In this document: piece by piece, positions 3,201 through 29,957 of the stretch
How positions within the stretch are numbered: the stretch's first letter is position 1
Layout of the letters: each line of letters opens with the position of its first letter
Assembly: GCA_943325145.2 (NCBI GenBank)
Contig: CALPOI020000002.1
Span: 1 to 37,016 of the forward strand
Direction: 5' to 3'
DNA: 37,016 bases
Source of the DNA: Candidatus Planktophila lacus
Lineage (GTDB): Bacteria > Bacteroidota > Bacteroidia > Flavobacteriales_D > Crocinitomicaceae
The notes under the pieces: generated by a model
Database searches by the model: none
What the model saw: only the letters and a program-made list of their open reading frames with translations
Told to the model about the DNA's origin: nothing
Translations under genes and position numbers: made by a program

Positions 3201-6200
3201 TGAATTACCAGTTACCGCATTTCTTTTTTTCTTAGCTTCTAATAAATTATCAAAAATAATTTCCACATTGTTTTCTTCCAACCAAATATCTTCTGGAGAA
3301 TTTGCTCCCCATTGTGTAGGGGTTAATGGCATTTCATATTCATAATAATTATCCGTAAAATCTGAACCTAAACGAACAAACAATGTCATATCTTCTTTTT
3401 GCAAAGGACTAGATTTAGATACTTCTTCAGCATGAACAAACAGTTTTAATTTTTTATAAGTTCTTACATCAAATTGAATATTCTTATAAGCCGCTTGTGC
3501 ATTTCCATCTTGTAAGTTACACACCTCTAACGACAACGCTTGTTCATTTAATTGTCTTGTTTGAACTTGTGATGGATCTATTTCACGTGTAATTCCTGGA
3601 GGTATGACATAATTTATTGGTGTTCTTCCTCCATTCTCTTCTATGTTTACTGCCGCGATATTGAAAGACGTTAAATTTGGATCTGTTTGAATGTTCTCAC
3701 CTGCAGAATTCATAGTACCCAAATATTTTCTCCATTCACCTCGAATAAACTCAAGTCGCGCAAAACGTAAAACAACTTCTTCGTTAAAATCTTTTAAAAA
3801 CATACGCATAAAACGAATGGATCTAAAATCAGAAATTCCATTCACCGCTTTTTGTGGTTGTCGAATAGGAATCTTAAATTGAATCCAACGTTCTGTTTTG
3901 TTTCCGTTTTGATAAGATTGAATATTGGTAATATAATTTTTACCAATTTCTATTTCATTAGGACGTAAACCAATTTTATATTGAAAGTAACTTTCAGACT
4001 CAGATAAGTTATTGTCTTGGTTAATATCTTCAACATCTGGTAAATTAGATGCTTGTGTAGGATACCCACCAGCATTAATTGAAGCGGACATCTCAACTGT
4101 TGGTGAATTTCCTTCTGTGCGATTGTACCTTTTATAACGTGTTAAAATATCTGCTTTTTCAGCATCATAAATATCATCTCTATAAAACTTATAATCATCA
4201 TTTGATGGATCTGATACCATTCGCTGTTTTACTTCTGGTGTAAGTGTTGGATGTTTTTCGACCCAAGCTACATACTTTTTATAAAACTCTTTTTCAATTT
4301 CGTTGTTCCATCCATCTAACCCTACATCTTGATTTTTCAAATTATCTGCATTCATATCAAAAGCGTTTACAACGACATTTTGAGTACTCACTCTTGCCCA
4401 TGATGTAGTATCGATGTTATCTTGAGCGGCAGAAGCATTAATAGGCAATCCATTTTCAAAAGACTTTCTAGAATCAGGTAAAATATCTTCGGAAACGTTT
4501 CCTAAGTTGAAATATAAATCTCCACCTGCATGTTGAGAATTTGGATCCACTTTTTCAGCATCTTCATTAAAAGGATCTAACATCCAAAACTGAATAAATT
4601 CTATATTACTTAATTCGAAATCATTTGTTGTAATCGAACGCATAATACCACCCCATTTCTTTTCTGGATTTGTAAATCGACCTAATTTATCAATTGCTGA
4701 AAGAGTATCGTAATTATACATTCCACGCTCTTTTGGATAGTAGGCTAACTCTAATATTGGAATATTCGTAAAAGTTCCATATTGTTGCTGTAAGTTCGGG
4801 AAAATTTCTTTTTGATTTACCATTCTCATTCTACTATCTGTCAACATTTCAGGGGTGTCCTTAATATGAGAAGGTGTTAATGTATTTCCTTGATAAAACA
4901 ATGGATCAATTAAATACCAAGCTATATTTGAACGATTAAAACCTGCTTTTAAATCTTTTACAGTAGATTCAGGAAACAAATCAGGTTGACCTTGCGGAAT
5001 TGATGCCAATCTCCAAGCATTTGGGGACCTTAAATCAATGGTACTCTGACTTCCCTCAAAATCATCAATATAAGATATACCTGTACTTGATATAACATTC
5101 GGTGATCCCGGAATTAAATGGGCTACTTCTCCCGTTATTGAAATAGATGACTTAGCTTTAGTTGAAATTATTGGCAATAAATCAACCAATTTAGTAAGAA
5201 CAGGAAGATCTTTTTTAAACGAAAAATCTAACCCTAATACATTGTTTTTAAATGGTTCAGATCCCATATCTACCTTTTGGGTGATTGGAGTCTCTGCCAT
5301 CCGTAGCCAAGTAGCACCTAAATTAATGTCTTTATTAAACTGATAATTTAAATGTGTTCCAATAAATGTTTTGGCCTGAAATCCAAATACTGAATTACTT
5401 TCAACGGAAACTTTTATTGGGGTATTCGATTCTAGAATTCCGTTATTCAATATTTTTACTCTTCCTAAATTATAATCTACAGTATAATCTGTTCCTTCTA
5501 TCAATTTTATTCCACCTGCCATTACACTAACCGCTCCTTGTGGAACATTTAAAGCATTCAATGGAATATCTGAACTTACTGATGATTGGTATTGGCCTTT
5601 AAACATAAACCTATTTTTTGCAGGAATTTGTTGCGCAGCTGTTCTCGTAGAATCATATAATTCTGTAAATACTATTTTATTGATAATCGTTGGATCAATA
5701 TTTTTTTCAATCATCTTATTCTTCAAAGTTTGACCAAAAGGTTCCACTGTTGAAAAATAAATTCGTCCATTTTTCGGATTGATTGTACCGCCGTTATCTG
5801 CTTTATTGCCATTAAAATTAATTGGAGCAAAATCGAATAATCCATCTGAAAAAGGTTGATTGTTCACATTCATCTTATCCATACCTAACATTGATACCAA
5901 CTGAGTTTTATCCAAACCTTCAAACGGGAAAAAATTAACTGGCAATCCAGTAGCTGGATTATTATATAGAACGTCTAATCGAAAACCATTTCGGTCTACT
6001 TGGTATGCACCTATGGAATAAACATTCTTCATCATTAAATCCCAGATATGATTCTTAGGATTGGTTAACGTAGGCTTCAATAGTTTTAAGACCAGTGCAT
6101 TTTTTCCATCTACACCATCTGTTGAGAATTGTCCAACTTGATAGGTTTTACCTTGAAACGTATACTCAAAAGAAACGGCCAATACCTCATCGTTCATCAA

Positions 6201-18920: not shown

Positions 18921-19808
18921 TTATATCTTTTCTTTTTTGAAAACATAAATTTGAGAGCTATAACCGTGATTTTTAGCGTATAAATTTGATTTTAAACCAT
19001 TTATAACACCATTAACTACGGATCCATTCTTATATTTCTCTGATAACATACTTACATAGTAAGCATCGAACTTCATTGGAAGAATTTCAATACAATTCAT
19101 ACCAAAAGATTTTAATAGTAATTGTATCGTGTTTTTCTGAAAGTGATAAAGGTGACGTGGAACATCATAAGCTGCCCAATAAGACTTATAAAACTTAGCA
19201 TCCCAAGAATCCATATTTGGTACAGCAACAAACAAGTAACCTCCTGTTTTTAAAACTCTTACAATTTCAGAAAGGTCCCGTTTAAGATGGTAAACATGTT
19301 CTAATACATGCCACATTGTAACTATATCTTTAGAATCAGAAGGAATACTTGTCAACTCTTCTAAGGTATCTAACGATAAATTAAAATTTTGTTTTGCGTA
19401 TTTTCTCGCATCTTCATCTGGTTCTAAACCTTGAATTTCATATCCTTGAGTTTGAGCCAAATTTAAAAAATGTCCAGTACCAGCTCCAATATCTAACAAT
19501 GAATTTCCTTTGGAATAATTAGAAAGTAATTTTACCTTCTGTTTTAGTGTATAATTTCTTACAATAGAATAAACACGATTTATAATTCCTTTATTTGAAG
19601 AGGAGTGTGAAACATATTCTTCACTTTTATAATAATTTCCAATAGTAGTTTCAGCTGGTATTGGATTTGTAAAATGAAAACCACAACTAGAACATTTCAC
19701 AATAGTGAATTCCTCTTTTGTAATCATCCAATCTTTTAAATCAATAAAAGATTCGAATTCTGCATGTTCACAAACTGGACATGCGTTTATTGTATTTAAT
19801 TGTTCCAC
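18921..19808 (-). CDS. Class I SAM-dependent methyltransferase with N-terminal CxxC zinc-ribbon-like motif
   Basis: 295 aa, apparent GTG start; CPVC...CSSCGFHFTNP, LLDIGAGTGHFLNLA, MWHVLEHVYHL. Confidence 0.9.
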   Translation of the reverse strand: MEQLNTINACPVCEHAEFESFIDLKDWMITKEEFTIVKCSSCGFHFTNPIPAETTIGNYYKSEEYVSHSSSNKGIINRVYSIVRNYTLKQKVKLLSNYSKGNSLLDIGAGTGHFLNLAQTQGYEIQGLEPDEDARKYAKQNFNLSLDTLEELTSIPSDSKDIVTMWHVLEHVYHLKRDLSEIVRVLKTGGYLFVAVPNMDSWDAKFYKSYWAAYDVPRHLYHFQKNTIQLLLKSFGMNCIEILPMKFDAYYVSMLSEKYKNGSVVNGVINGLKSNLYAKNHGYSSQIYVFKKEKI

Positions 19809-19816
19809 GTGAAACT
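19801..19816. promoter_or_regulatory. parS: parS-like centromere site 1 (TGTTCCACGTGAAACT)
   Basis: 15/16 match to TGTTNCACGTGAAACA; spans the mnmG stop / methyltransferase GTG start junction. Confidence 0.85.
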
Positions 19817-21689
19817 ACCTTCCTAAATAAATTAATAAAACAGATATATCACTAGGGGATATACCACTAATTCTAGATGCTTGACCAATAGTAGCAGGAC
19901 GAATTAAATTGAACTTTTCACGAGCTTCTAGTGATATACTGAATAAATGAGAATAATCTAAATCGGATGGAATAGCTAATTCATCCAATTTGTTCATTTT
20001 TAAAGCCATTTCTTGCTCTCGTTGAATATAACCGTCGTATTTAATTTGTATTTCTGTTTGTTCAGAAATGCTTTCATGAATTTGATCGAATTCATTAATC
20101 ACCGATAAAACATTAGAATCCATAGATTTAATATGCTCTAAGGATAAATTAGGTCTAACTAAAACTGAAGTAAGCTTAACTTGTTGATTTATTGGGGTGC
20201 TATCTAAAGATTCTAAAACAGGATTAGCTTGATTCGGTTTTATACCTGTGATTGATAAATAATTTCTTAGTTCTGAAACGCCTTTAATTTTAGAATTAAC
20301 TATCGCTAAAGTACTGTCATCCACCATGCCAATTTGATGAGCTAAAGGAGTTAAACGAATATCAGCATTATCTTGTCGTAACAAAATTCTATATTCAGCT
20401 CTACTCGTAAACATTCTATATGGTTCCTTAGTTCCTTTTGTAATTAAATCATCAATTAAAACACCGATATATGCATCTGAACGATTTAGAATAAATGGAT
20501 CTAATTCATTAATTTTTCTATGTGCATTAATACCAGCCATTAAACCTTGACAAGCTGCTTCTTCATAACCAGTAGTACCGTTTATTTGACCAGCAAAATA
20601 TAAACCATTTATTAATTTAGTTTCAAGAGTATGTTTTAACTGAGTAGGGGGGAAGTAGTCATATTCAATCGCATAACCAGGACGAAACATTTTAACATTT
20701 TCAAAACCAGGAATCGTTTTTAAAGCACTTAATTGTACTTCCTCTGGTAGAGAAGTGCTAAATCCATTTAAATAAATCTCAACAGTTTTCCAACCCTCTG
20801 GCTCAATAAATAATTGATGTCTATCTCTTTCTGCAAAACGATTAATTTTATCTTCTATACTTGGGCAATAACGAGGGCCTGTACTTTTTATAGCACCATT
20901 AAACATTGGAGAACGATCAAAACCTGAACGTAATATCTCATGTGTAAGAGTAGAAGTATAAGTTATATGGCAAGAATGTTGGTGTTTCAAAGCAGAAGTA
21001 GACGATGAATAACTAAATTTTGAAGGTTTCTCATCACCCTGTTGAACTTCGAATTTTGAATAGTCCAAAGATCTACCATCCAAACGAGGTGGAGTTCCTG
21101 TCTTCATTCGTCCAGCTTCAAAACCCAATTGAACTAAATCTTCTGTAATTCCAGTAGAAGCACGTTCAGCTGCACGACCACCTCCAAATTGTTTATCACC
21201 TAAATGAATTAAACCATTTAAAAAAGTACCATTGGTTAATACAACAGCAGAAGAATAGATACTAATTCCTAAACTTGTTTTTACTCCTTTAACAGATCCA
21301 CCTTCAACAATCAAACCGGTACACATATCTTGCCAAAAATCAACATTTGGATTTTGTTCCAAATAAAGTCGCCATTCTTCAGCAAACAACATTCTATCAT
21401 TTTGAGTACGCGGAGACCACATAGCAGGACCTTTAGAACGATTTAACATCCTAAACTGAATAGCACTTTTATCACTTACTATTCCTGAACCACCACCCAA
21501 AGCATCAATTTCACGAACTATTTGACCTTTAGCAACACCACCCATAGCAGGATTACAACTCATTTGAGCAATTGTATTCATGTTCATTGTTATCAACAAA
21601 ACAGAACTACCTAATTTGGCAGCAGCATTAGCAGCTTCACAACCAGCATGACCACCACCAACAACAATAACATCGTATTTCTTTAACAT
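19815..21689 (-). CDS. mnmG: tRNA uridine-5-carboxymethylaminomethyl(34) synthesis enzyme MnmG (GidA)
   Basis: 624 aa; [67 protein letters not shown]. Confidence 0.97.
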
Positions 21690-21695
21690 AAATAT

Positions 21696-21711
21696 AGTTT
21701 CACGTGAAACA
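21696..21711. promoter_or_regulatory. parS: parS-like centromere site 2 (AGTTTCACGTGAAACA)
   Basis: 15/16 match to parS consensus; contains the 14-bp palindrome GTTTCACGTGAAAC; in the 72-bp mnmG-ybeY spacer. Confidence 0.9.
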
Positions 21712-21743
21712 AAATTAACTGATGGGGTAGGGTAGATATAATT

Positions 21744-21759
21744 TGTTTCACGTGAAACA
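21744..21759. promoter_or_regulatory. parS: parS centromere site 3 (TGTTTCACGTGAAACA, perfect palindrome)
   Basis: 16/16 match to parS consensus; extends to a 20-bp perfect palindrome TTTGTTTCACGTGAAACAAA (21742..21761); centre 48 bp from site 2. Confidence 0.93.
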
Positions 21760-21761
21760 AA

Positions 21762-22172
21762 CTATATTATAGACAAATAAAAATCTTCTTTAGAGCGCAT
21801 GATTTTTTCTTCACTAACTGACTTGTCTCCGTAACCACATAGGTGTAAAACACCATGAACTAAAACACGATAAAGTTCAGTTAAAAAAAGAACATTGTAG
21901 GTTAAAGCATTTTCTTTAACTCTGTCAATACTAATAAATAAATCTCCTGAAACTTCTGAGTCTGCAGAATAATCAAACGTAATTATATCAGTATAATAAT
22001 CATGGTCTAAGTATTCCTTATTAACAGATAAAAGGTAATCATCTGAACAAAAAATAATTGAAATTGGACCGCAAACTTTGTTTTCAGAAACACAAACGTT
22101 AGTTAACCAACTAATAATCAAATCATTATTTAATTCAAAAACATCAATTTGCTCAAAAGTAAAATCTATCAT
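21762..22172 (-). CDS. ybeY: Endoribonuclease YbeY (16S rRNA maturation)
   Basis: Likely start MIDFTFEQ at 22172; conserved LVHGVLHLCGYGDK metal-binding H-x3-H motif. Confidence 0.93.
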   Translation of the reverse strand: MIDFTFEQIDVFELNNDLIISWLTNVCVSENKVCGPISIIFCSDDYLLSVNKEYLDHDYYTDIITFDYSADSEVSGDLFISIDRVKENALTYNVLFLTELYRVLVHGVLHLCGYGDKSVSEEKIMRSKEDFYLSII

Positions 22173-22173
22173 T

Positions 22174-22587
22174 TTATTTATTGAATACAATTATAGCAGA
22201 AGCACCATTGTTTTCATAAATCAATTCGTCTGCTAAATTCTTAATTAAGAAAATACCTCTACCGTTTTCTTTTTCTATGTTTTCGGGTGCTGTAGGATCA
22301 GGAAGATTCAAATAATCAAAACCTAAACCTTCATCACTGATACGAAAATAAAAAGATGATTCATCTTCAGAAACTTCAATAGAAACAATTTTAGATTCTG
22401 AATATTGATTACCATGAATAATTGCATTATTTACAGCTTCAGTTACACCAATAAGGACATTTCCATATACATCTTCATTTACATGAATTGTATTACAAAC
22501 TCTATCAATTAAAGATTCTACAAGAACTAAACTTGTTAAACTAGAAGGAATCGTTAATTTTTCAATTATTATAGAATCTATGCCCAT
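22174..22587 (-). CDS. ATP-binding protein, RsbW-like anti-sigma regulatory/serine kinase HATPase
   Basis: 137 aa; N-box VTEAVNNAIIHGNQYSESK, G-box DEGLGFDYLNLPDPTAPENIEKENGRGIFLIKNLAD. Confidence 0.88.
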   Translation of the reverse strand: MGIDSIIIEKLTIPSSLTSLVLVESLIDRVCNTIHVNEDVYGNVLIGVTEAVNNAIIHGNQYSESKIVSIEVSEDESSFYFRISDEGLGFDYLNLPDPTAPENIEKENGRGIFLIKNLADELIYENNGASAIIVFNK

Positions 22588-28847: not shown

Positions 28848-28876
28848 TGGATACTGATTTTTCAATTCATTCACTG

Positions 28877-28884
28877 CAAATATA
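28877..28884 (-). promoter_or_regulatory. Candidate -7 element (TATATTTG on minus) for the LytTR regulator
   Basis: Plus CAAATATA, 30 nt upstream of the revised start. Confidence 0.4.
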
Positions 28885-29477
28885 CTTCTGTTTTCTATTT
28901 AAAATAAAAATATTCAATTATTTAAACGATTGATTTAATAAGACTTAACTTTTTTGTTGATTTAAGATAATTCTTTCATTTTTAAAAAACAAATTATCAT
29001 CTAAAAGCTCTTTTTATAATAAAGAATAATTATTTATTTAAATTTTAAAAAACTTACTACTATTATTAAGGCTGTTGATATGTGTGAAAAATAGTTACTA
29101 TATAGTTTGATTATTCACTTATTAAAAAATAGGTTTAGTTTACTAACAATAATAAATTTATAAAAGACTTTATTTAAGTTATTTACATCATTATTAACAA
29201 AATCTGATATATGTTGTGTGTGAATTAATAAATAGTAAAATACACCATATTTTTTGTTATTAAGCATGTGTGAATTTAAATATAACTCTATTTAACTTTA
29301 CTTGTTTTATATAAATATTACTTGGTTTGGAATTATATTCATTAAATGCAAATTTTATTTTCATATTTAATTAACATTTTATTTATAAATAATGAGTTTT
29401 TATGTTTAATAACTATTTTTTTAATTATTTGATAAATAGATTATTAATTTTTATGTTTTTTAGCATTTGTCAATAAC
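28885..29477. other. Gene-free, extremely AT-rich intergenic region; candidate oriC/regulatory region
   Basis: No ORF in the supplied track; visibly very AT-rich; repeats TGTGTGAAAA (29081-29090), TGTGTGAATT (29217-29226), TGTGTGAATT (29267-29276); TTATTCACTT (29111-29120). Confidence 0.4.
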
Positions 29478-29508
29478 TTGCTTGATTTGTTAATATAGAT
29501 TAACTTTG
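29478..29508 (+). promoter_or_regulatory. Candidate promoter for rpiB (TTG -33-like, TAACTTTG -7)
   Basis: TTG at 29478, then 20 nt, then TAACTTTG at 29501-29508, 17 nt before the ATG. Confidence 0.5.
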
Positions 29509-29525
29509 GTAAAAATTCTATTTAT

Positions 29526-29957
29526 ATGTTGATTCCTATAGGTTCTGATCATGCAGGTTTTGCTTTAAAAACAAAAATTATTTCTTATTTAATTGAAAAA
29601 GGGTACCAAATCGATGATAAAGGTTGCTACAATGAAGATAGTATAGATTATGCAGATTATGCTCATCCTGTGGCTTCATTGATTGAAAATAATAAAGGTA
29701 TGAAAGGTATCTTATTATGCGGAAGTGGTAATGGGATTAATATGACTGCAAATAAACACCAAGGTGTTCGAAGCGCTTTATGTTGGTCTGCAGAGATAGC
29801 TAAATTAGCAAGAGAACATAATGATGCTAATATTCTTACATTGCCTGCACGTTTTTTAACTGATGAAGAAGCACTTCAAATTGTAGATGTGTTTTTTAAC
29901 ACTGAATTTGAGGGTGGAAGACATCAAAAAAGAATTGAAAAAATACCTTGTCTTTAG
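29526..29957 (+). CDS. rpiB: Ribose-5-phosphate isomerase B
   Basis: 143 aa; IGSDHAGFALK, ILLCGSGNGINMTANKHQGVRSALCW, REHNDANILTLPARFL. Confidence 0.95.
   Translation: MLIPIGSDHAGFALKTKIISYLIEKGYQIDDKGCYNEDSIDYADYAHPVASLIENNKGMKGILLCGSGNGINMTANKHQGVRSALCWSAEIAKLAREHNDANILTLPARFLTDEEALQIVDVFFNTEFEGGRHQKRIEKIPCL

Follow-up and report, generated by a model that had tools for sequence, protein, structure and literature searches.

Three 16-bp sites that flank mnmG in the window (the whole 37,016-nucleotide stretch of DNA analyzed here) very probably constitute the chromosomal parS cluster of a ParABS segregation system (Table 1). Judged by its sequence and setting, this cluster is an ordinary chromosomal centromere that occupies a conserved position. 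A previous reading of the same DNA, made from the sequence only, had scored the sites as ParB-binding matches at 15/16, 15/16 and 16/16 that bracket mnmG. All of these coordinates and scores were reproduced using the chromosomal parS sequence TGTTNCACGTGAAACA as the reference consensus, and the bracketing arrangement holds: one site overlaps the stop codon of mnmG, and two, with a spacing of 48 bp, lie inside the 72 bp that separate ybeY and mnmG.

Table 1. Coordinates of the parS sites, their neighboring genes and the proposed origin (window positions unless a locus is given)
Feature	Position	Strand	Description
parS1	19801..19816	+	TGTTCCACGTGAAACT, 15/16, 1 mismatch
parS2	21696..21711	+	AGTTTCACGTGAAACA, 15/16, 1 mismatch; 6 bp before mnmG start codon
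parS3	21744..21759	+	TGTTTCACGTGAAACA, 16/16, perfect 16-bp palindrome, directly after ybeY stop codon
SAM-dependent methyltransferase (Methyltransf_23)	18921..19808	-	downstream of mnmG
mnmG (gidA)	19815..21689	-	gene flanked by parS sites
ybeY	21762..22190	-	conserved neighbor upstream of mnmG
proposed oriC	28875..29525		84% AT intergenic region with six 1-mismatch DnaA-box-like sites, between LytTR response regulator and rpiB
rpiB	29526..29957	+	landmark adjoining proposed oriC
f7 parS sites	L260 2927, 5741; L261 5080		genomes G121, G095; at or near thrC

The sequence-only reading had considered a chance origin of these matches very unlikely, in agreement with our simulations. Among 100 shuffles of the window, matches with up to two mismatches averaged 0.08 with a maximum of 2, compared with six strand-matches at three places in the real sequence. 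It had also proposed a genome-wide scan allowing one mismatch, which we ran on the draft genome (2,277,461 bases in 297 contigs, 85.8% complete). The three mnmG sites, all within 2 kb, were the only matches, forming one cluster with no scatter, and a reversed control pattern searched in the same draft genome at the same threshold returned 0 matches. When up to three mismatches to the strict palindrome were allowed, the remaining matches in the draft genome were dispersed, with the control pattern itself giving 15 per strand.

The site at the 3′ end of mnmG is embedded in coding sequence. On the minus strand, parS1 reads AGTTTCACGTGGAACA. The TAG stop codon of mnmG is completed by the first two of these letters, and the site also provides the GTG with which the methyltransferase gene starts, in the mnmG frame and separated from the TAG by two codons. 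This GTG is the only usable start ahead of the CPVC motif of the methyltransferase, and the frame relation between stop and start is kept in all 15 loci examined. Sites of the parS1 type usually contain GTGGAAC when the methyltransferase gene follows and GTGAAAC when it is absent, with one exception (L056) where the open frame is retained with GTGAAAC. The 3′-end site is therefore retained whether the methyltransferase gene is present or absent.

The closest relatives of this mnmG are found in Crocinitomicaceae-type records (Fluviicola and uncultured relatives), with 84% identity across the full length and 93% across a partial one. The nearest records (L024, L025 and L026) have the same two- or three-site layout, and one more (L029) is without the 5′ end. 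We carried out the comparison of mnmG borders across related Bacteroidota that had been suggested from the sequence. Counting sites with up to two mismatches, and permitting C or T and G or A at two variable positions, 76 of 80 related loci have a site no more than 75 bp from mnmG, many of them on both sides. No parS-like site was found in the fetched DNA of the other four mnmG loci (L088, L090, L097 and L103), and two loci (L095 and L102) have two-mismatch sites only. In a phylum-wide sample, sites with at most one mismatch occur in 112 of 118 genomes, while the control gives 0–2 matches per genome. A site within about 520 bp of mnmG is present in each of 12 genomes opened from other orders, 10 of them from other classes; two of the 12 (G061 and G145) have two-mismatch sites only. 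This distribution bears on the idea that the matches arose by chance or are inactive relics of an ancient gidA-gidB-parA-parB cluster. The window does lack parAB, and the parAB genes of relatives lie far from the sites, as might be expected of remnants. However, relics would decay, whereas near-perfect multiple copies persist across the phylum and the shuffled windows contain almost none, leaving either explanation extremely improbable.

Position relative to the gene presents a different alternative. In most Crocinitomicaceae loci, one copy ends 5–11 bp ahead of the mnmG start codon, and in most Algoriphagus/Roseivirga-type loci the site lies 13–21 bp ahead. Such a near-constant distance would suit a palindrome that controls mnmG, alone or together with the methyltransferase gene, as an operator or leader element recognized by a different regulator or by a ParB whose main role is repression. 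We regard this as very unlikely, given that the sequence is the complete parS consensus, that the site also occurs at the 3′ end of mnmG regardless of the methyltransferase, and that the sites track the origin (see below). In addition, two genomes of one family of the class (f7) have an mnmG without a site and carry parS at and near the end of a putative thrC in what we take, from the look of the proteins, to be a thr operon. The site is therefore not inherently linked to mnmG, a point against an operator specific to that gene. The parS cluster may still have a dual role, as a centromere with an effect on mnmG.

As the sequence-only reading had stated, neither parA nor parB was found among the genes of the window. 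ParB and a cognate ParA were also not found in the strain's own draft genome, which most likely reflects the incompleteness of the assembly. A ParA-like ATPase on contig C22 (L211 1495–2250) was rejected as the cognate ParA, having 39% identity and STAS-like and CheY-like neighbors. A genome lacking ParB had been named as evidence against the parS assignment; ParB is present in 59 of 60 family genomes, with the window's own incomplete assembly as the sole exception. The phylum sample has ParB in 117 of 118 genomes and the order sample in 205 of 219. When the latter was searched for relatives lacking ParB, most negatives proved to be incomplete assemblies (10 of the 14 exceptions are less than 90% complete). 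Four other species of the genus carry ParB, with the gene order parA-parB-(one short gene)-dapB-lepB.

Solved structures of both ParB and Noc can be aligned with the ParB proteins of relatives. All 12 relatives compared retain the GERR(F)xA motif, a feature of CTP-binding ParB, together with the counterparts of R173 and G201 (KSR...GHAR). In Caulobacter numbering, these are the two positions that separate parS from Noc-site specificity; both residues are reported to be invariant in ParB and altered in Noc (PMC7383237). Noc and ParB being close paralogues, and Noc structures aligning with the relatives' ParB, one could suppose that the three sites are of the Noc type (NBS). This is scarcely credible, however, as the sites show the bases of parS, and at the two specificity positions the protein of relatives carries R and G where Noc would have Q and R. 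Moreover, genomes in the family and phylum samples as a rule have one strong ParB-family match each, and the genus has so far shown no additional ParB/Noc protein bearing the Q...R signature.

An origin-proximal location of the parS cluster had been expected from the sequence, and GC skew agrees with it in the window and in the four complete relatives that we sampled from three families of the order (G059, G192, G177 and G004). The cluster is within 5 kb of the fitted skew origin range in G059 and within 10 kb in G192. In G177, where the fitted range wraps around the contig start, the skew is consistent with an origin at the cluster, and in G004 the skew origin is 189 kb from the cluster in the coarse sample and about 20 kb at fine scale. 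In G059, the densest cluster of DnaA boxes within 165 kb, at about 1,757,100–1,757,800, falls in the same place as the local skew minimum (1,757,843), 12 kb from parS. G004 has its skew minimum at 2,741,365; one box cluster is found at about 2,742,850–2,743,650, and other clusters there score equally. Both box clusters are immediately upstream of rpiB.

On the basis of base composition, box content and an rpiB-side position like that of the box clusters in G059 and G004, we propose that oriC in the window occupies the intergenic region adjoining rpiB, 7 kb from the parS cluster. The boxes there are imperfect, about 1% of equal-length segments have a box score as high, and relatives G059 and L197 match better. 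The GC-skew minimum of the window is at about 25.4 kb, about 3.5 kb from the proposed oriC. A further 14 loci have rpiB 4.7–4.9 kb upstream of mnmG, and most of the rpiB-side regions are box-rich, those of L028 and L047 being the exceptions. The rpiB-oriC-LytTR block of G059 has the reverse orientation to that of the window. In two of the four complete genomes, G004 and G059, dnaA is at the contig start, 0.38 of the chromosome from parS. The origin appears to be marked by mnmG/parS and the AT-rich stretch beside rpiB, often not by dnaA. A study that used parS clusters and GC skew, with supporting read coverage, to place the origins of 12 gut species, including two Bacteroidetes, similarly warns that dnaA and the origin can lie apart (PMC10197239). 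Those two species, Bacteroides caecimuris and Muribaculum intestinale, belong to the same phylum and are described there as having an origin marked by a parS cluster and GC skew. They are from another order, and the corresponding passages do not mention mnmG.

For eight genomes of the order that have parS and parB on a single contig, the separation between them is 0.28–0.50 of the chromosome (mean 0.43). The corresponding range is 0.08–0.44 for eight genomes from other orders of the class, and 0.11–0.47 from mnmG, taken as a proxy for parS, to parB in ten further genomes; several of the genome lengths behind these distances are rounded, and genomes were counted without regard to kinship. The remote parAB of relatives in the order fits the sequence-only view of a centromere separate from its partition operon. 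We dropped a terminus-side parAB as a general rule because other orders show intermediate distances, and describe it as a tendency within the order only.

The parA-parB genes are near the origin in classical ParABS cases. The systems of Bacillus subtilis (Spo0J) and Caulobacter (ParB) have the same 16-bp parS site clustered near the origin, and the ParB of relatives here shares with them the parS-specificity residues and the CTP motif. They differ in that parA-parB of this order is distant, as given above, and in that the sites bracket mnmG. Similarly, gidA-gidB-parA-parB forms the origin region of many bacteria; gidA/mnmG beside the origin and parS is the part shared here, while gidB and parAB do not adjoin mnmG.

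We infer that the strain has a ParB that binds and loads at the sites, and that the complex so formed is moved. ParB dimers would load at the parS sites, close as CTP-dependent clamps and slide onto adjoining DNA. Shortly after origin replication, ParA would then move this ParB-DNA complex, which lies about 7 kb from the proposed oriC. With parS staying beside mnmG and the origin, the distant parA-parB operon would need to act in trans over much of a chromosome arm. It is conceivable, but in our estimate unlikely, that the arrangement in relatives is a selected dosage or timing feature, in which the ParA and ParB genes, relocated in this order toward the terminus half, are copied late while parS is held at mnmG and the origin across Bacteroidota, the sites perhaps influencing mnmG.

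Literature searches for parS together with mnmG or gidA returned nothing on Bacteroidota, and the conserved parS position beside mnmG appears to be little described in the literature searched. Our additions are modest: a phylum-wide association of parS with mnmG, the remote location of parAB, and a site spanning the mnmG stop codon and the next start codon. The mnmG-parS cluster gives a simple origin landmark for Bacteroidota genomes, where dnaA often misleads, and a defined target for work on chromosome segregation in the phylum. One study detected no homologues of known condensins in the two members of this phylum that it covered (PMC10197239). Close to the partition operon itself, no parS-like site was seen upstream of parB in three of the genus relatives opened; the other (L193) has a one-mismatch parS-like sequence, TGTTTCACCTGAAACA, at 3648–3663, ~1.6 kb upstream of the gene.
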